Assembly: GCA_902826335.1 (NCBI GenBank)
Contig: CADEEL010000003.1
Span: 25,121-89,120 of the forward strand
DNA length: 64,000 nt
DNA from: an uncultured Alphaproteobacteria bacterium
GTDB taxonomy: Bacteria > Pseudomonadota > Alphaproteobacteria > Caulobacterales > Aquidulcibacteraceae
Direction of reading: 5' to 3'
Below the pieces are notes generated by a model. That model ran no database searches. It saw only the letters and a program-made list of their open reading frames with translations, and was not told the DNA's origin. Both the position numbers and the translations under genes were made by a program. This document shows, piece by piece, positions 6,630-22,500 of this stretch; position 1 is the stretch's first letter; each line of letters opens with the position of its first letter.

Positions 6630-8639
6630 ATGCGGTTTTCGGACGCCTTTTTGCGGTCCTTGCGCGAGCGCGTGTCCATTGCGGACTATGCGGGCCGGCG
6701 CCTCGCCTGGGACCGGCGCAAGAGCCAGCCCGCCCGGGGCGATTACTGGGCGTGCTGCCCGTTCCACTCCGAAAAAAGCCCCTCCTTCCACGTGCTGGAA
6801 GGCAAGGGCATCTATAAATGCTTCGGCTGCGGCGCGGCGGGGGATATCTTCACCCTCTCCATGCAGCTCGAAGGCGGGAGCTTTCCAGAAACGGTTGCGC
6901 GGATCGCCGGCTTCGCGGGCGTGGCCCTGCCGGAGGACGAACGCGAGGATAAGGAAGCGGCCGATCTGAGGCGGCGCCTGCAGGGCTTGGTCGCGCGCGC
7001 GGCGGCGCTCTATGGCGAGGCGCTCACCGGCCCGGAAGGGCGCGCGGCGCGGACCTATCTCGAACGGCGGGGCTTTACGCCCGATCTGTGCCGGCAATTC
7101 GGGATCGGTTATGCGCCAGGGCCCTGGACGTGGACGATCGACAAGCTCAAAAGCGCCTATCCGCTCGATGATTTGGTGCTGGCGGGCCTGGCGCGCGCGG
7201 GCGAAGCCGGCAAGCGCCCCATCGATATGTTCCGTGATCGGATCACATTCGAGATCGCCGACACGGGCGGCAAGGTGATCGCATTCGGCGCGCGCGCGCT
7301 CGACCCCGCCGCGAGCGCGAAATACATCAATTCCCCGGAGACGCCGCTCTTTCACAAGGGGCGCACGCTCTACCGGCTGAAACAGGCGCGCGAACTCGCC
7401 GCCAAGGCCAAGGCCGAGGGGCTGGTGGTCGGCGAAGGCTATCTCGATGTGATCGCGTTCGAGCGCGCGGGGATTGGGGCTGCCGCGCCGCTCGGCACGG
7501 CGCTGACGGAAGATCAATTGCAGTTGCTGTGGCGCGCGGGGCCGGCGCCGGTGCTGTGCTTTGATGGCGACAGCGCCGGCCAGCGGGCGGCGGCGCGCGC
7601 GCTCGATCTGGCGCTGCCGCATCTGGGGCCGGGCCGCACGGTGAAATTCGCGCTCGCCCCGCCCGGGCAGGATCCGGACGACGTCTTTCGCGCCGGCGGC
7701 GCGGGCGCGCTCAAGGCGCTGATCGACGCCGCGCAGCCGGCGGTGCGCATGCTGTTCGAACGCGAACGGCGCGCCGGGCCGCTCGACACGCCGGAGGCCA
7801 AGGCTGGCTTCAAGCAGCGCCTCAAGGCCGCGGCCGGGCGCATCCAGGATGAAGAAACCCGCCGCTTTTATCTGCGCGAAGTGCTGGCCCTGGCCGATGC
7901 GGCGTTGTGGACACGGGCCCCGCCGCAAGGCGCCGGCGCCTGGAAGGGCCGCGGGCAAGGCCGCGCGCCGCCGGCGGCCGTGACGCCCGAACTCAAGGCG
8001 CTGGCGGGCGCGCGGCGCGACGATACAGTCGAGCGGTTGGTGCGCCTGGCGGTCGATCACCCCTCCCTCCTCGATCGCGGCGGGGATGCGCTGGCGGGCC
8101 TGGCCAGCCCGGACCGCGACATCGAATGCATAAAATCAGCCCTGCTCGACCTCTGGCACGGGGCGCAAAGTGTTGACCGCGCGGCCTTGAGCCTCCATCT
8201 GCGACAATTGGGGGAAATGCGCGCGGCCGCCCGGCTGGACGCTTGGCCCCGTCCCAAGATTTCGTCAGAGGATGGGGAGCGCGACTGGATGGCGTTGGCG
8301 GCGTCGGAGAGCGCGGCGCCCGATGCGCTGAGCGGCCCGGGGCAGACGGGCGTTCGCGTCGCCGTGCGCGGCGAAGCTAAGGCGAAAGTGGCGCGCCCGG
8401 CGCCGCTTTCGGCGTTGAACGGCGCGGAATGGATGGCGGCTGTCGGCGTCGATGCGGCGTCCACCGCGGTGAAGCAGGAAGCGCGGGCGTTGCGCGCCAG
8501 CGTCGATGCGGACGCCGCTTCGATGGCGCGGGGACAGGCATTGTTGCGCGATCGCTGGCGCGCGGATGCGGATGCGCTGCGCCTCAGTCAGCGCGCAGGT
8601 CATGGATCAGGTGAGGCAGATGGTGCGGAAGACGAGTGA
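6630..8639 (+). CDS. dnaG: DNA primase
   Basis: 669 residues. It makes RNA primers for replication. The CHC2 zinc finger uses Cys43, His46, Cys64 and Cys67 ([11 protein letters not shown]...KCFGCG). The TOPRIM catalytic residues are Glu269 (VVGEGYLDV) and Asp312/Asp314 (FDGDSAG). The C-terminal part is the DnaB-interaction region. The ATG at 6630 gives the family start [15 protein letters not shown]; an in-frame TTG at 6618 is possible. The 3' end overlaps the predicted rpoD start by about 20 bases, the conserved alphaproteobacterial order. Confidence 0.97.
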
Positions 8640-10920
8640 AAAGCAGAGCGTGAAGGCCCCGGCCAAGAGCGCGGCCAAGGCCAAGCCGGCGGCCAAACCG
8701 GCGCCCAAGGCGCCCGCCAAGAGCGCGCCGAAAGCCGCCGCGAAAGCGCCGCCCAAGCCCGCGCCCAAGGCGGCGCCCGCGAAGCCCGCGCCGAAAGCGG
8801 CCGCGAAGGCCGCGCCAAAACCCCCACGGCAAAAAGCCGCGCCGCCCAAGCCCGCGCCGAAGCCGCCCGCCGCGTCTGTCGCCAAGGCGGCGGTGAAAAC
8901 CGTTGAGACGGCGCCGCCCGCACCAAAGCCCGCGCCGGCCTCCGAAGACGCCAAGGTGCGCAAGGCCAAGACCGGCAAGGATGAGGCCGGCGGCGACAAG
9001 GAAGAAGCGGCGGACGGGCCGATCCTCGATCTCACCGACGCGGCGGTGAAGAAGATGATCAAGGCCGCCAAGGCGCGCGGCTTCGTCACGCACGAAGAAT
9101 TGGCGAAAGTTCTGCCCAGCGAGGAAGTCAGCTCCGAGCAGATCGAGGACACGATGTCGATGCTCTCGGACATGGGCATCAATGTCGTCGACAGCGAAGA
9201 AGAAGCCGAGGTCGAACAAGAAGATGGCGCGGGCGCGGCCGTCGCCAAACGGGAAGACGGCAAGCCGCCCGTCACCAATATGCGCGAGGACGCGGACCGC
9301 ACGGACGATCCCGTGCGCATGTATCTGCGCGAGATGGGCACGGTGGAGCTGCTGTCGCGCGAAGGCGAAATCGCCATCGCCAAGCGCATCGAAGCGGGCC
9401 GCGACGCCATGATCCGGGGCCTGTGCGAAAGCCCGCTGACGTTCGAAGCCATCATGGTGTGGCGCGACGAACTCCGGAATCAGCAAATCCTGCTGCGCGA
9501 CATCATCGATCTTGAAGCCACTTATGGTGCCGAAACCGGCCCCGCGCCCGCCGCGCTCGAAGCGGTGGAAGGCGCGGGCGAGCCAGAAGCGGAAAAGCCC
9601 GAAGGCGCGGCGGAAGGCGAAAATCCGGATTCGGACGATTTTGACGATGAAGCGGCAATCTCCATGTCAGCCATGGAGGCCGAGCTCAAGGAAGGCGTGA
9701 TGGCGACGCTCGACGCCATCGCCGCCGCGTTTGAGGAATTCCGCAAGCTGCAGGACAAGCGCATTTCCGCGCGCATCAAGGGCCGCTCCCTGCCCGGGGC
9801 GCAGACGGAAGTCTATGAAGGCGCGCAGAACACGATCATCGAGGAGCTGAAGAAGCTCAAGCTCAACAATGCACGCATCGAGAGCCTGGTTGAGCAGCTT
9901 TACGCGATCAACAAGAAGCTCATCTCGCTCGAAGGCAAGCTGATGCGCCTCGCGGACGCGAACGGCGTGGCGCGCGGGGACTTTCTCGACGCCTATCAGG
10001 GCGCGGAGCTCGATCCGCGCTGGATCGACAAGGTGGCGGCGCGCTCGAAATCCTGGGCGCGGTTCGTCGACAGCGAAGGCGAGACGATCGGCGACATTCG
10101 CAATGAAATCTCGGCGCTGGCCAAGGAAACCGGCGTGCCGATCGATGAATATCGCCGCATCGTGCACGCCGTGCAAAAGGGCGAGCGCGAGGCCCGCCAG
10201 GCGAAGAAGGAAATGGTGGAGGCCAATCTGCGCCTGGTCATCTCCATCGCCAAGAAATACACAAATCGCGGCCTGCAATTTTTGGATTTGATTCAAGAAG
10301 GCAATATCGGGCTGATGAAGGCGGTCGATAAATTCGAATATCGGCGCGGCTACAAGTTCAGCACCTACGCGACCTGGTGGATTCGCCAGGCGATTACGCG
10401 CTCAATCGCCGACCAGGCGCGCACGATCCGCATTCCGGTGCATATGATCGAGACGATCAACAAATTGGTGCGCACCAGCCGCCAGATGCTGCACGAGATC
10501 GGCCGCGAACCGACGCCGGAGGAATTGGCGGAAAAGCTCGGACTACCTCTCGAGAAGGTCCGAAAAGTGATGAAAATCGCCAAGGAGCCGATTTCCTTGG
10601 AGACGCCGATTGGCGATGAAGAGGATTCGCATCTCGGCGATTTCATCCAGGACCCGAACGTGGTGCTGCCGGTGGACGCCGCGATCCAAAGCAATCTGCG
10701 CGAAACGACGACGCGGGTGCTGGCTTCGCTCACGCCGCGCGAAGAGCGCGTGCTGCGCATGCGCTTCGGCATCGGCATGAACACCGATCACACGCTGGAG
10801 GAAGTGGGCCAGCAATTTAGTGTGACGCGCGAACGGATCAGGCAGATCGAGGCGAAAGCGCTGAGGAAATTGAAGCATCCGAGCCGCTCCAGAAAACTGA
10901 GAAGTTTTCTGGACAATTGA
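8620..10920 (+). CDS. rpoD: Primary RNA polymerase sigma factor (sigma-70)
   Basis: About 766 residues. Residues 1-125 are an unusual Lys/Ala/Pro-rich tail (many AKPAPK units). Region 1.1 lies at about 135-195, region 1.2 at [20 protein letters not shown], then an acidic non-conserved region. Region 2 starts at [16 protein letters not shown] (about 532) with [17 protein letters not shown] for -10 recognition. Region 4 holds the helix-turn-helix [19 protein letters not shown]. The ATG at 8620 has GAGG three bases before it; 8602 (ATG, MDQVRQ) is an alternative. The gene ends in RKLRSFLDN encoded by AT-rich codons that form a hairpin, followed by a second copy of that tail. Confidence 0.97.
10889..10912 (+). 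repeat. Perfect 10-bp hairpin inside the last codons of rpoD
   Basis: CCAGAAAACT (10889-10898), loop GAGA, AGTTTTCTGG (10903-10912). It lies within the codons for SRKLRSFLD, and the AGA and AAA codons needed for the stem are unusual in this GC-rich gene. No T-run follows, so it is not an intrinsic terminator. It could stabilise the mRNA 3' end or be the edge of an inserted sequence. Confidence 0.75.
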
Positions 10921-12983: not shown

Positions 12984-13595
12984 TCACCATGCATAATTGA
13001 AACTTACGCTTACGCGCGGCTTGCGCGCCTCGTTCAACACCACTTCGTGGCGCAGCCAGCTTTCCCACATGAGCACATCGCCAGCGCGCGGGGCGAGATA
13101 GACGAACGTGCGCTCCGCTTCTGGCGCATCTTCGCGGCGCGGGGGCGCGGCCATCATCAGCGGCAGGCGTGGATCCTCCAGCTTCAAGGCCGAAGCGCCC
13201 TTTGGAATGTCCACATAATAGGCTCCGCTGAGCACGCTGTGCGGGTGGATGTGGCCGCTGTGTGCGCCGCCGGGCGCAAGCACATTGATCCAAATCGAAT
13301 CGAGCGCGAGTTTGCGCCGGCCGAGATCGAGATGAAGTTCCGCGGCGAAGGCGCGCGCGTGGGGATCTAGCGCTTTCTTCAAGTCCGCGAAGGCGGGATC
13401 GCGCTTGGGCAGATCATTGAGCGAGGCGTAAGAGGTGTAGCCTCTATAGCCATGCGCGGCGCTCCAGGCTTTGCCCGCCTCGTCTTGCGCGGCGATCGCG
13501 AGGCATGAGCGCAGCACATCCGCGCGCAGCTTCTCATCCTCGATCCCGGCGCGATAAAGCTTCGAAACGAAGAGGGTTTGCGTTTCTCCGCTCAT
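12984..13595 (-). CDS. TIGR02466-family putative 2-oxoglutarate/Fe(II) oxygenase
   Basis: 203 residues. HSGHIHPHSVLSGAYYV (about 112-128) supplies the metal-binding histidines of the cupin-like barrel, and WLRHEV (His183) plus RVSVSFN supply the distal histidine and the 2-oxoglutarate-binding arginine. This is the signature of the TIGR02466 family, thought to be 2OG-Fe(II) oxygenases of unknown substrate. Its ATG overlaps the stop of the upstream sugar dehydrogenase by four bases, so translation is probably coupled. Confidence 0.87.
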   Translation of the reverse strand: MSGETQTLFVSKLYRAGIEDEKLRADVLRSCLAIAAQDEAGKAWSAAHGYRGYTSYASLNDLPKRDPAFADLKKALDPHARAFAAELHLDLGRRKLALDSIWINVLAPGGAHSGHIHPHSVLSGAYYVDIPKGASALKLEDPRLPLMMAAPPRREDAPEAERTFVYLAPRAGDVLMWESWLRHEVVLNEARKPRVSVSFNYAW

Positions 13596-14722
13596 GCGGA
13601 CGAAAGGCGCATGAGGGCGCCGTCCTCCCCATCCGTCAGTACAAAGACGAAGCCGCCCGGGCCGACGCGCACATCGCGGATGCGGGCGCCGAGATCGAGC
13701 AGCAAATCTTCTTGTTCAGTGACGCGCCCGTCGCGTACGCGCAGGCGCTGCATCTGCGATCCGGCGAGAAACCCGATCAGCAAATCGCCGCGCCAATTGG
13801 GGAAGGCCTCCCCGCGATAGAGCGCAAGGCCAGATGGCGCGAGCGAGGGCGTCCATTGCGTCACCGGCGTTTCAACACCCGGCGCGGTCTGACGCTCGGA
13901 AATGATCGCGCCGCTGTAATCGACGCCATAGGTCACCAGCGGCCAGCCATAATTGGCGCCGGGGCGGATAATGTTCAGCTCATCGCCGCCGCGCGGGCCG
14001 TTTTCATGCGACCAGATGGTTTGCGACTCGGCGTCGTAAATTAGGCCCATCGGATTGCGGTGGCCGTAGGAATAGATTTCCGGTGCGGCGTCCGCGCGGC
14101 CGACGAAGGGATTATCCGTAGGCGGACGACCCTCTCGATTGATGCGCACGATCTTGCCGATGACGGCGCGGAGGTTTTGCGCTTCGGCGCGGAGGTTATC
14201 CGGCAGGCCGACGGCCATGAGCAGGGTTTCATCCGGCAGAAAGGCCATGCGCCCGCCAGGGTGATTGGTTCCACCACGCAGGCCTGCGCGATAGATGACG
14301 CGCCCATCCCGAAGCGCACCGCCCTCATAGCGCGCGCGCCAGAGCGCGAGGCGCGTTCCCTCCGTGTGGCGCTCAAAGAAGGAGATGTAGACGAAGCCGT
14401 TCTCCGCGAAGCGCGGATCGAGAGCAATGTCCTGCAGACCGCTCTGACCCGCCTGGCGCACATTGGCCGGCCCGCCAGAGAGTGGCGCGCTTAAGGCGCC
14501 ATCGGCGAAGCGGCGCACGCCGCCGTGCTTTTCGGTGATGAGCGCCGCGCCGTCCGGCAGAAAGGCGAGGCCCCATGGATTGTTCAAGCCCGTCGCCAAC
14601 ACATCGACGCGCACGCCATCGCTAACGGAGGATTGGGCGGCGCGCGCGCTGGGCGCTTCGCTGACGCAGGCGGCCAACGCGGCGGCGGGGATAATGAGAA
14701 CAGAACGGCGGGATGTGCGCAT
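13592..14722 (-). CDS. PQQ-dependent sugar dehydrogenase (soluble GDH-like beta-propeller)
   Basis: 376 residues. The N-terminal MRTSRRSVLIIPAAALAACV contains both an RR motif and a possible lipobox (LAAC), so it is exported. The propeller includes GLNNPWGLAFLPDGAALITEK, SGLQDIALDPRFAENGFVYI, GHRNPMGLIYD and HENGPRGGDELNII, the hallmarks of the GSDH/sGDH family that oxidises sugars with PQQ and calcium. A 64-base gap separates it from a paralogue upstream. It overlaps the oxygenase gene downstream by four bases. Confidence 0.93.
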   Translation of the reverse strand: MRTSRRSVLIIPAAALAACVSEAPSARAAQSSVSDGVRVDVLATGLNNPWGLAFLPDGAALITEKHGGVRRFADGALSAPLSGGPANVRQAGQSGLQDIALDPRFAENGFVYISFFERHTEGTRLALWRARYEGGALRDGRVIYRAGLRGGTNHPGGRMAFLPDETLLMAVGLPDNLRAEAQNLRAVIGKIVRINREGRPPTDNPFVGRADAAPEIYSYGHRNPMGLIYDAESQTIWSHENGPRGGDELNIIRPGANYGWPLVTYGVDYSGAIISERQTAPGVETPVTQWTPSLAPSGLALYRGEAFPNWRGDLLIGFLAGSQMQRLRVRDGRVTEQEDLLLDLGARIRDVRVGPGGFVFVLTDGEDGALMRLSSA

Positions 14723-14785
14723 CGGCGGCCTCGATTGAGCGAGGCGCAAAATTGGCCGAACACGTGCTGAATGCAAGCAGCGCCC

Positions 14786-15925
14786 TCAGCCTGGGCGCAG
14801 GCGCCAGACCTCCCCCGCCTCATCATCGGTGAGGAGGTAGAGAAAGCCATCCGGCCCAACGCGCACATCGCGGATGCGTGCTTCGCGCTCGTGCAGCAGC
14901 ACTTCTTCGAGCACGGCGATGTTGTCGCGGATACGCACGCGGCGGAGATGTCGAAATGCTAGCGACCCAACGAAGAAATCCCCCCGCCAATTAGGAAACG
15001 CGTCGCCCAAATAAAGCGCGATTCCGGAGGGTGCGATCGAGGGGGAAAAGACCACGAGCGGATTTTCCGCGCCCTCCAACTCCTCATTCGGGGTTATGAT
15101 GGTTCCGTCATAGTCGATGCCGTAGCTGGCGCGCGGCCAGCCATAATTGCGCCCAGCCTGGAGAATGTTCATCTCGTCGCCGCCGCGCGGGCCGTTTTCG
15201 TGCTGCCAGATGGTTCCGTCGCGCGGATCGATCGTGAGGCCCAGCGTGTTGCGATGGCCGTAGGTGAATATTTCCGGCAGCGCGCCCGTTTGCGCGACGA
15301 AGGGATTGTCGGCTGGCGCGGCGCCATCACGATTGAGGCGCAACACCTTGCCCAGGTGCGATCCCAAGTTTTGAGCCGCATCGCGATAATCGTATCCGTC
15401 CCCAACCGCGAGCAGAAGCGTTTCATCTGGAAGAAAGACGATGCGACCGCTGGGGTGAGCCGCGCCGCGCTTATTCGGCGTCGCGCGAAAGAGCACTCGG
15501 CCCTCGACAAGGGCGCGACCATCGAAGCGGGCGCGATACAGCGCGAGGTGATTTGCCTCGATCGTACCTTCTGAGAAGGCGATGTAGACAAATCGGTTCT
15601 CCGCGAAGCGCGGATCGAGCACAATATCGCGCAGGCCGCTTTCGCCATCGTAGAGCGCGCCCTCGGGCCCGCCGGCGAGCGGCTGCGGCTCGAGGCGGCC
15701 ATTGGCGCGCAGCAGGCGCACGCCGCCATGCAATTGCGTGATCAGCGCGTCGCCGCCAGGAAGGAAGGCGAGACTCCATGGGAAGGGAATGCCGCGCGCG
15801 ACGACATCCACGACAAAGGGGGGCGCATCGCCGTCGCGCGCGTCCTCACCTCGCCGCGCGCATCCCGCAGCCAGAGCCAAAGGCAATACGAGCAGCGCGC
15901 GGCGCGGTGGTTTCCAATCAATCAT
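14786..15925 (-). CDS. PQQ-dependent sugar dehydrogenase, lipoprotein paralogue
   Basis: 379 residues with lipobox LAAGC near residue 22. The propeller repeats IPFPWSLAFLPGGDALITQ, SGLRDIVLDPRFAENRFVYI, GHRNTLGLTIDPR and HENGPRGGDEMNIL align with the next gene over its whole length, so the pair arose by tandem duplication. It is expected to be anchored in a membrane facing the periplasm. Substrate and electron acceptor are not visible, and no PQQ biosynthesis gene is present in this window. Confidence 0.93.
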   Translation of the reverse strand: MIDWKPPRRALLVLPLALAAGCARRGEDARDGDAPPFVVDVVARGIPFPWSLAFLPGGDALITQLHGGVRLLRANGRLEPQPLAGGPEGALYDGESGLRDIVLDPRFAENRFVYIAFSEGTIEANHLALYRARFDGRALVEGRVLFRATPNKRGAAHPSGRIVFLPDETLLLAVGDGYDYRDAAQNLGSHLGKVLRLNRDGAAPADNPFVAQTGALPEIFTYGHRNTLGLTIDPRDGTIWQHENGPRGGDEMNILQAGRNYGWPRASYGIDYDGTIITPNEELEGAENPLVVFSPSIAPSGIALYLGDAFPNWRGDFFVGSLAFRHLRRVRIRDNIAVLEEVLLHEREARIRDVRVGPDGFLYLLTDDEAGEVWRLRPG

Positions 15926-19351: not shown

Positions 19352-19451
19352 TTGGATGGCGTAGCAAATCCCGCCTGGACGTGCACCGCCTCTCGCGCCG
19401 GCCGCGAGGCGGCTTGATCGCGGCGTGGTTTTGCGGTTCCACCTGAGCCGT

Positions 19452-20051
19452 ATGCAGACATTGATCGCTGGCTATCGAAGGTTCAGGGGGCGACGCTGGC
19501 CGGAACTCGCGGCGCTCTACCGCAAGCTCGCGGCGGGCCAGAGCCCGCGCCTGCTGGTGATCGCGTGTTCCGATAGCCGCGTCGATCCTTCGACGATTTT
19601 CGATTCTCCGCCGGGCGAACTGTTCATCGTACGCAACGTGGCCAATCTCGTGCCGCCCTATGAGCCGGACGCCGGCTATCACGGGGCCAGCGCGGCCATC
19701 GAGTTCGCGGTGACGCGCCTCAAGGTGGAAACCATCCTGGTGCTGGGGCACGCCCATTGCGGGGGCGTCGCCGCCGCGCTCGACGGGGGCGCGCCGGGCG
19801 CGTTCATCGGCCGCTGGCTCGATCTTCTGGCCCCCGCGCGGGCGCGGCTGAGCGGCGTTGAAGCCGATCCGCACGCCGCGCTTGAGTATGAATCGATCCG
19901 CGTGAGCCTGGCCAATCTCGGCACGTTTCCATTCATCCGCGCGGCCATGGCGGCCAGGACCCTCACCCTCGCCGGCGCGCGGTTCGGCGTTTCGGACGGG
20001 GTGTTGGAGGTGATGGACCAAGAATCTGGTGAATTTTCACCCATCGACTGA
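19452..20051 (+). CDS. Beta-class carbonic anhydrase
   Basis: 199 residues. It interconverts CO2 and bicarbonate. Zinc ligands are Cys39 (ACSDSRVDP), His100 and Cys103 (GHAHCGGV). The Asp41-Arg43 dyad is present. Further family segments are GELFIVRNVANLVPPYEP and GASAAIEFAVTRLKV. The ATG at 19452 starts the conserved region; 27 bases of in-frame upstream sequence are not needed. Bicarbonate is a substrate of the CarA/CarB enzyme in the window, but there is no operon link. Confidence 0.94.
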   Translation: MQTLIAGYRRFRGRRWPELAALYRKLAAGQSPRLLVIACSDSRVDPSTIFDSPPGELFIVRNVANLVPPYEPDAGYHGASAAIEFAVTRLKVETILVLGHAHCGGVAAALDGGAPGAFIGRWLDLLAPARARLSGVEADPHAALEYESIRVSLANLGTFPFIRAAMAARTLTLAGARFGVSDGVLEVMDQESGEFSPID

Positions 20052-20188
20052 GTCTTGTCGCATTTCAAGCACACACCCCCCTGTGCGCGCGCTTTTGGCG
20101 TGATATGCACCTTTCTTGCATGGTTGCCTGAATGTTGACGGCAACCCAACGGCGCGGGGTCGCGCCTGGCACTGGCGACGGAGACGGC

Positions 20189-22027
20189 ATGGCGGACGTT
20201 CTCATCGTCTGTGTTCGCGAAGATGAGCCTCTGGCGAAGGCTTTCGCGGACATGTTCGAACGCGCGGGACTGCATGTGGGAGGCGCCCCCGGGGCCCCCG
20301 ACGACATGCGCAATTGTGGGGCGGCCCTGGTGGTCTGGTCCCAGGCGAGCATCCGATCGCGTGCGTTTTTGGACGCGGCGCAGCGCGCCGTGAACGCCGG
20401 CAAGGCCGTGGTGGCTTGCCTCATCGCGCCGCCGCCGGCGGCGAGCATCAACCATGCGCCGGCCTTCGATCTCTCGCATTGGGCCGGCGATCCGGACGAT
20501 CCGACGCTTGATCCCTTGTTTTTCGCGGTTGACCGCATGGTCGCCGCGGTGCGCGCCTCGGCAGGGGCCGCGGCGCCCGTCGCCGCCACGGCCGCCGCCG
20601 CGCCGGCGCGGTCCGAGCCCGCCTCCTATTTCAACGCGCCCCAGGCGCCTGCCCCGCAGGCTTCGCCGCCCTATGCGCGTGCGCGCAGCACACCGACGGC
20701 CCGGCCCGCCGCCGCGCCCGGCTATGACATTCCCCGCGCGCCGGCCGCCGCCGCGCGCCGCCCTGGCCCCGCGCCGGGCCAACGCGATCCAGACAATGTC
20801 GCGGCCGAAGCCCAGAACTGGGCGGCGATCCGGCACAGTCGCAATCCCGAGGATTTCCTGCGCCACTTGGCCGATTTCGGCTCCGAAGGCGCGTTCGCGG
20901 AGCTGGCGCAAATGCGCCTGGCCGAGCTTGAGGCCGAAAACCGCCGCCGCCGCCCAGGCGCGGCGAGCCCACGCGGCGAAGCGCCCGCGCGCGGCGGCTC
21001 GGTTCGTCTCGATCCGCCCAGACCCGCCAGTCCCCGCGCCGAGCCCCGCATGGAAGCCCCGCGCGGCCGGGGCGGCGCCTCGCGCCCGCCGCCGGCCGCG
21101 TTCGAACCGATTCGCTCCGAACCGCCCCAACAGCGCCTGCGCGGCGCGCCAAGCCGGGGCGAAGCTCCGCCCGCGTGGCGGGACGATGGACGCGCGCTGG
21201 CCCGCCGCCCCGACGTGGGCGGCCCGCCGCGTCAAAGCAGCCGCACGATCCGCATGATGGCGATCATCGTGGTGCTCGGCGGGGCCGCGCTCGGCGCGGG
21301 CCTGTTCGCCGGAGACCGCTTCGGGGCCCTGAATTTCCTGACCGGCGGCGGGGCCGAGCAATCGGCTGACGCCAGCGCCTGGGAAGACGCCCCACCCGGC
21401 GAAACCGCCGACGCCAGCGCCAGCCTCGATTTCGGCGGCGGCGGCGCCAACCTTTCCGGCCCGGCGGAACCCGATCTTCGCCGCTCCAACGCCGCGCGCA
21501 TTCCGCAGCGCCCGCCCGCCCAAGGCGGGCCGACGATCGAGCGCGAACCCGCCGCGCGCGAGATCAACCCGCTGCGCACCGCGCCGCCCGCCGAGCGCGA
21601 AGCTGCGCCCGCTCCTGTCGCGCTGACGCCGGCGCCCGCGCCGCTACAATTGACGCCGGCGCCGCAGCCGCAAATCCAGACTGCGGCCGTTGAGCCGCCG
21701 GCCCCGGCTCAAGTGGGCCCGCCGCGCACGCCGCAGGTGGTGTGGGCCGCGCGGCCCGGTGCGCAACGCATCAACGAGCTCTTCCCGTCGCGGGCGCTCC
21801 GCTCCAATCAAGGCGGACGCGTGGAGCTTGATTGCCTGCTCGATGCGGCCGGCGTGCCGCGCTGCGCGGTGGCCAATGAAACGCCGAGCGGCTTTGGCTT
21901 CGGCGCGGCGGCCTTGCGCGCCTCCGGCCAGTTCCGCGCGCAGGCCAACCTCGATGACGGCACGCGCTCCGCCGGCGCGCAGACGCGCCTGACAATCGTC
22001 TTCCGCCAGCCGAGCCCCGGCCAATAA
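20189..22027 (+). CDS. TIR-like / transmembrane / TonB C-terminal chimera
   Basis: 612 residues from the ATG at 20189 (GGAG 5 bases upstream). Residues 1-120 resemble a TIR_2 domain (DVLIVCVREDEPLAKAFADM, GAALVVWSQASIRSRAFLDA). Residues 121-200 are Ala/Pro-rich. Residues 203-250 (NWAAIRHSRNPEDFLRHLAD, FAELAQMRLAELEAE) match a helical unit common in bacterial TIR and caspase-like proteins. A basic, Pro-rich linker leads to one TM helix (354-376), a second Pro-rich linker, and a TonB C-terminal domain (about 515-606: GRVELDCLLDAAGVPRC, GFGFGAAALRAS). The expected topology is TIR in the cytoplasm and TonB in the periplasm. The position of the usual TIR catalytic Glu is Asp/Ala, so NADase activity is doubtful. 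Confidence 0.82.
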   Translation: MADVLIVCVREDEPLAKAFADMFERAGLHVGGAPGAPDDMRNCGAALVVWSQASIRSRAFLDAAQRAVNAGKAVVACLIAPPPAASINHAPAFDLSHWAGDPDDPTLDPLFFAVDRMVAAVRASAGAAAPVAATAAAAPARSEPASYFNAPQAPAPQASPPYARARSTPTARPAAAPGYDIPRAPAAAARRPGPAPGQRDPDNVAAEAQNWAAIRHSRNPEDFLRHLADFGSEGAFAELAQMRLAELEAENRRRRPGAASPRGEAPARGGSVRLDPPRPASPRAEPRMEAPRGRGGASRPPPAAFEPIRSEPPQQRLRGAPSRGEAPPAWRDDGRALARRPDVGGPPRQSSRTIRMMAIIVVLGGAALGAGLFAGDRFGALNFLTGGGAEQSADASAWEDAPPGETADASASLDFGGGGANLSGPAEPDLRRSNAARIPQRPPAQGGPTIEREPAAREINPLRTAPPAEREAAPAPVALTPAPAPLQLTPAPQPQIQTAAVEPPAPAQVGPPRTPQVVWAARPGAQRINELFPSRALRSNQGGRVELDCLLDAAGVPRCAVANETPSGFGFGAAALRASGQFRAQANLDDGTRSAGAQTRLTIVFRQPSPGQ

Positions 22028-22143: not shown

Positions 22144-22500
22144 ATGCTGCTGACGATGCTGAAGGCAAAGCTGCACCGCGCCACGGTGACCCAGGCCGAT
22201 CTCGACTATGAAGGTTCGATCGCGATCGACCGCGCGCTGCTCGACGAAGCCGGCATCCTGCCGCACGAGCAGGTCGATGTGCTGAACATCAATTCGGGCG
22301 CGCGCTTCACCACCTACGCCATCGAGGCGCCGCGCGGATCGCGCACCTTCGGCGTCAATGGCGCGGCCGCGCGCCTTGTTCAGCCCGGCGACAAGATCAT
22401 CGTCGTCGCCTATTGCCAGATCCCGGCCGAGGAAGCGCGCAATTACGCGCCGAATGTCGTGCTGCTCGATGACGAGAATTGCGTGAAGCGCGCGGCGTAA
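22144..22500 (+). CDS. panD: Aspartate 1-decarboxylase
   Basis: 118 residues. It makes beta-alanine for pantothenate and CoA. It self-cleaves between Gly24 and Ser25 (DYEGSIAID) to form the pyruvoyl cofactor. Lys9, His11, Arg54 and Tyr58 of the active site are present, and [14 protein letters not shown] and [10 protein letters not shown] match the family. The ATG at 22144 gives [15 protein letters not shown], aligned with the E. coli start. It is a single gene, followed by two family A repeats. Confidence 0.96.

Follow-up and report, generated by a model that had tools for sequence, protein, structure and literature searches.

Bacterial immunity often involves TIR domains, which in bacteria have been studied mostly as NAD-consuming defence enzymes. 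Non-enzymatic TIR scaffolds are represented by adaptor TIRs of the MAL/MyD88 type. On the side of the TonB-like proteins, the cytoplasmic domain of GltJ contains zinc-ribbon and GYF modules. GltJ is a modular protein of the TolA/TonB-like type and has one transmembrane helix; its TonB C-terminal (TonB_C) motifs are believed to extend as far as the outer membrane (PMC5349195). In Escherichia coli TonB, Ser16 and His20 of the SHLS motif contact ExbB (PMC12215075), and SjdR, a TonB-like protein of Anabaena, shapes the peptidoglycan of the septum and has been proposed to function independently of TonB-dependent transport (PMC8262864). A search of the open-licence literature for the combination of TIR and TonB, and for TIR in Hyphomonadaceae, returned nothing relevant.

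The window analyzed here (the whole stretch of DNA, 64,000 nucleotides) contains a gene whose product joins a TIR domain, a helical FAELA unit, a transmembrane helix and a TonB_C domain in one polypeptide (Table 1). This composition had been proposed from the DNA letters, and it is borne out by the predicted folds, by a family-wide profile and by 14 orthologs of the same layout. The open reading frame coincides exactly with that of the original prediction. Its likely start is the ATG at 20189, since the MADV encoded there is common to the orthologs, which do not conserve the in-frame start at 20132. The protein is assembled from already known parts, and their combination is a new variant.

Table 1. 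Coordinates of the fusion gene, its parts and its two neighbours in the window
Feature	Position	Strand	Basis
TIR-FAELA-TM-TonB_C gene	20189..22027	+	612 aa plus stop; orthologs
TIR-fold domain, residues 1-127, non-catalytic	20189..20569	+	Pfam TIR_2, AlphaFold2 model, fold match 5uzb
Residue 63 (Ala), aligned with catalytic Glu of paralogous TIR domains (WVxxE)	20375..20377	+	paralog alignment
Pro/Ala-rich linker, residues 128-200, predicted disordered	20570..20788	+	pLDDT mostly <55
FAELA unit, three helices, residues 201-251	20789..20941	+	model; unit recurs in other proteins
Pro/Arg-rich cytoplasmic linker (predicted side), residues 252-355	20942..21253	+	17% Pro from residue 130 to TM helix
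Transmembrane helix, Gly-rich, residues 356-375	21254..21313	+	hydropathy 2.25, charge bias
Pro-rich periplasmic linker (predicted side), residues 376-513	21314..21727	+	18% Pro
TonB C-terminal domain, residues 517-608	21737..22012	+	Pfam, family profile, model, fold match
Cys549	21833..21835	+	invariant column; strand 1/2 position in model
Cys559	codon 21863-21865	+	invariant column; strand 1/2 position in model
Beta-carbonic anhydrase, upstream neighbour	19425..20051	+	Pfam Pro_CA 2.6e-41; synteny
panD, aspartate decarboxylase, downstream neighbour	22144..22500	+	Pfam Asp_decarbox 1.6e-48; synteny

Folds and membrane layout of the fusion protein

A Pfam scan of the 612-residue protein returned TIR_2 and TonB_C only, both under their own curated cut-offs: TIR_2 on residues 4-100 with an E value of 2e-4 and 22.3 bits for the domain taken alone (cut-off 28 bits), and TonB_C on residues 532-605 with 22.4 bits (cut-off 24.6). 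At the level of the family, TIR_2 is matched at E<=0.1 by all 19 members of the alignment and TonB_C by 19 of 20 members (best E 1.9e-10), and the family profile run against the PDB finds TonB2 at E 2.1e-8. In the AlphaFold2 model of residues 1-252, most of the stretch 1-120 has a pLDDT above 90, and VIA-align superposes residues 1-123 of this model on the MAL TIR filament 5uzb_A with Z 13.7 and an rmsd of 2.1 over 115 aligned residues; the best 50 entries for this model are TIR-domain structures almost throughout. Judged from the model, the fold of the N-terminal domain is that of a TIR. A response-regulator identity had been raised by PDB matches of the N-terminal profile, all of them weak (E 0.006 and worse), and was dropped because the model fits TIR structures far better. 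The C-terminal region, modelled with a mean pLDDT of 87.7, aligns with E. coli TonB (1u07_A) at Z 10.7, and the same protein stands first in the Foldseek list of this model. Structure prediction of the N-terminal 120 or so residues and of the C-terminal region has therefore returned the TIR and the TonB folds that had been expected of them.

The hydrophobic stretch of the transmembrane helix spans residues 356-374. The 15 sequences compared have 2-4 Lys/Arg residues ahead of this helix and 0-2 behind it. Following the positive-inside rule, this excess, found in 15/15, places the N-terminus probably in the cytoplasm, and the charge pattern supports the predicted N-in/C-out topology with a cytoplasmic TIR and a periplasmic TonB_C domain. 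Cys549 and Cys559 lie in neighbouring strands of the modelled TonB_C domain, so that they would probably form a disulfide across the beta hairpin, in keeping with a periplasmic site. In the TonB_C tree the fusion proteins form a cluster and the labels need to change only twice, though the basal branches are weakly supported; a single origin of the TIR-TonB_C fusion appears likely from these sequences. Another gene, at L050 (6685-7518, minus strand), encodes two tandem TonB_C-like domains with no transmembrane anchor after a probable signal peptide.

The FAELA unit is modelled as confident helices at residues 201-214, 220-230 and 237-251, and Pfam and PDB-sequence searches gave no convincing match for it. 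It is also found between a Glu-bearing TIR and a transmembrane segment in proteins of relatives (L085, L160, L161 and L172), and the C-terminal end of L085 and L161 may be read as a periplasmic FGE/SUMF1-type domain. The genome that carries the window (G000, 2.9 Mb) has 13 TIR_2 matches, 12 of them above the cut-off, and these 12 are candidate inner partners of the fusion protein. Several TIR_2 proteins of this genome have a transmembrane segment after the TIR. At L048, in the same genome, the gene of a TIR-TM protein that has the Glu and a periplasmic tail (6932-8014) precedes one for a small protein that contains a TonB_C-like domain (8224-8727), a two-gene echo of the fusion. Genes at L073 (7602-9812) and L074 (8207-10312) encode a Glu-bearing TIR followed by several transmembrane helices and WD40-like repeats, and the gene at L091 (5389-7215 on G000:C3, where the contig reads partly as N), immediately ahead of the window start, has a TIR near its C-terminus.

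Catalytic features, constraint and descent of the TIR domain

In helix C, the column of the catalytic Glu is occupied by Ala63, and Glu is present there in 0/17 of the family TIR sequences aligned. The replacement of the catalytic Glu of TIR NADases, suspected in the original prediction, is thus confirmed, and a shortening was found besides: in nearly all orthologs the BB-loop/helix-B region is about 12 residues shorter than in the Glu-bearing paralogs. Pairwise dN/dS values, which are only rough because dS is close to saturation, are 0.022-0.13 for the TIR domain, 0.03-0.16 for FAELA, 0.10-0.38 for TonB_C and 0.17-0.67 for the linkers. The ranking TIR < TonB_C < linkers holds in every pair with all three measured, and the TIR domain is the segment under strongest constraint in most pairs compared; in the pair of the window and G001 FAELA falls below it. 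Purifying selection on a TIR domain that lacks the Glu favours a binding role over NADase activity, in agreement with the role predicted at the outset. As far as sequences tell, a conserved dead enzyme domain must serve another job, most likely binding. The faster evolution of TonB_C might mean that the contact made by this domain is a loose one.

The TIR tree groups the fusion TIRs with four other Glu-less paralogs, set apart from the Glu-bearing TIRs by a branch with support of 100/99, and within this group the TIRs of the fusion proteins are not monophyletic. The loss of the Glu hence seems old in the group, the fusion TIR being one branch of a wider Glu-less set. Glu-less TIR proteins other than the fusion protein are encoded at L076, L077, L082 and L083, three of them with a probable transmembrane segment and a short tail and without a TonB_C domain.

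Distribution and genomic setting

The full layout is present in 14 orthologs from several genera of one Caulobacterales family (Hyphomonadaceae-type MAGs), with at most one copy of the gene per genome. A scan of GTDB genome contigs yielded 28 loci, by title mostly Hyphomonadaceae or Caulobacterales/Alphaproteobacteria MAGs and including one Terricaulis; the exceptions by title are one Hydrogenophilaceae and two Proteobacteria without finer rank. Strong TIR-FAELA matches were confined to that one family among 299 genomes of the order, only the genome of the window scored at 1e-15 among 385 genomes of the class, and the viral contigs searched held no relative of the gene. In one ortholog (L114, CP096134.1) the frame is broken after residue 312 and the match continues beyond, by a frameshift or a sequencing error.

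Most relatives with spanning contigs have the gene order carbonic anhydrase, fusion gene, panD, vWA/TadG-like gene, SPFH gene and carB, though panD went undetected at some loci. In three relatives the fusion gene overlaps or abuts panD (junctions TGATG, TAAATG and ATGA), which makes cotranscription likely. The fusion gene occupies a stable position among core genes and does not lie in a defence island. The metabolic neighbours give no information on envelope signalling, and the tests run recognized no partner gene of the fusion protein. As for genomes without the fusion gene, in G003 both carbonic anhydrase and panD were undetected in searches, and in G012 and G005 different genes lie beside carbonic anhydrase or panD. 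Elsewhere in the window (13592-15925, minus strand), two adjacent ORFs, similar to each other by eye and of PQQ-type sugar-dehydrogenase-like character, have probable exported N-termini.

Proposed role and comparison with known systems

The fusion protein is a conserved inner-membrane protein that probably carries or anchors information across the envelope, and probably not an NAD-destroying defence enzyme. We propose, as a tentative reading to which we give a little less than an even chance, that it is a single-pass inner-membrane adaptor whose TIR domain is a non-catalytic scaffold on the cytoplasmic side and whose TonB_C domain makes contacts in the periplasm. In the model, the cytoplasmic TIR fold, having lost the NADase machinery, would offer a surface for binding proteins; the contacts would probably be of the TIR-TIR kind, between copies of the fusion protein or with another of the cell's TIR proteins. 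Together, the FAELA unit and the Gly-rich transmembrane helix would keep the TIR at the membrane, possibly as an oligomer, while the long Pro-rich linker would extend the putatively disulfide-stabilized TonB_C domain through the periplasm, where its target may be a strand or peptide belonging to a protein of the periplasm or outer membrane. Binding or pulling at the TonB_C end would then be conveyed to the TIR end, or would position it. The binding partners and the direction of signalling named here are guesses; a link between envelope contact and a cytoplasmic scaffold is our best guess for the whole. In a quite unlikely elaboration, the catalytically dead, membrane-anchored TIR would behave like adaptor TIRs and gather or restrain active TIR-TM proteins of the same cell under control of the contact between TonB_C and the outer membrane.

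The long Pro-rich linkers, the stable inheritance and the likely expression with a housekeeping gene would also suit a purely structural trans-envelope tether, in which the TIR only fastens the protein to a scaffold or pole in the cytoplasm, TonB_C holds the wall or the outer membrane, and no signal is passed. The septal role of SjdR, which may work outside TonB-dependent transport (PMC8262864), points in the same direction. A tether does not by itself account for why a TIR fold, and not another binding domain, has been kept so strictly, and we consider it somewhat unlikely. A distinct proposal is an energized TonB paralog, whose docking to ExbBD would power an outer-membrane transporter and be regulated by the cytoplasmic TIR. 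The true TonB fold argues for it, as does the two-Cys subtype, which is the same as in the exbBD-linked TonBs of the genome. Against it, the SxxxH motif is absent from the transmembrane helix in 15/15 sequences, a weak test because both exbBD-linked TonBs of the same genome apparently lack the transmembrane His too. Moreover, the fusion gene is not linked to exbBD: neither exbB nor exbD is among the neighbours examined, which are instead carbonic anhydrase and panD, and the exbB-exbD-exbD-tonB-tonB cluster of this genome lies on a different contig (L049, 7065-10483, minus strand). Energy coupling through ExbBD, considered along with the original prediction, is therefore unsupported; such coupling is possible but unlikely, and the energized paralog as a whole is an unlikely reading.

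Bacterial TIR domains being so common in immunity, and a dozen further TIR proteins being encoded in the genome, the fusion protein might be taken for a receptor in anti-phage or stress defence, which would set off TIR effectors upon envelope breach. The catalytic residues are missing, however, PADLOC matched no defence family at E<=1, the viral contigs hold no relatives, and the synteny with metabolic genes, including the panD overlap in some relatives, is stable and free of any mobile or island context. The defence sensor that had been suggested is consequently not borne out, and we judge such a receptor improbable, although an adaptor for active TIR proteins could itself act in defence. A reading in which the shortened TIR is still an enzyme, with another residue such as Asp62 acting on NAD or a related nucleotide, draws on the strong constraint and on this acidic residue beside the lost Glu position, invariant in the closer orthologs (the 19-member set). 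Nevertheless, the alignment reads Glu at position 62 in L043 and Ser there in L044, and the BB-loop/helix-B region is deleted too, which makes this reading highly improbable.

The single-pass adaptor that we favour concerns a Glu-less TIR that is kept as a core gene in one lineage and wired to a TonB-type envelope domain. On it one can test the idea that bacterial TIR domains serve as non-enzymatic scaffolds, and TonB_C domains as sensors or anchors instead of nutrient-uptake motors. Among known TIR domains, the adaptors MAL and MyD88 give the top fold matches by Z, at about 10-18% identity, and the match is not specific for adaptors since SARM1 and plant TIRs reach Z 11-13. The Caulobacterales TIR-FAELA-TM proteins (L085 and L161, and L160 and L172 with other membrane parts) have the same order of parts as the fusion protein; unlike it, they retain the Glu and the full BB loop in their TIRs, and their C-terminal part is other than TonB_C. 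The TonB energy transducers (E. coli TonB, Vibrio TonB2) share with it the C-terminal fold and a Pro-rich periplasmic linker, whereas the fusion protein has a large cytoplasmic part, no SxxxH in its transmembrane helix and no linkage to exbBD. SjdR is likewise TonB-like, but without a reported TIR domain. By analogy of layout, the fusion protein seems most like GltJ (AgmX) of the Myxococcus xanthus Agl-Glt gliding machine, with which it has in common the single transmembrane helix and the periplasmic TonB_C domain; it differs in that no AglRQS-type genes were noted near its gene, and in that its cytoplasmic module is a TIR fold, with no zinc-ribbon or GYF domain in the Pfam scan.
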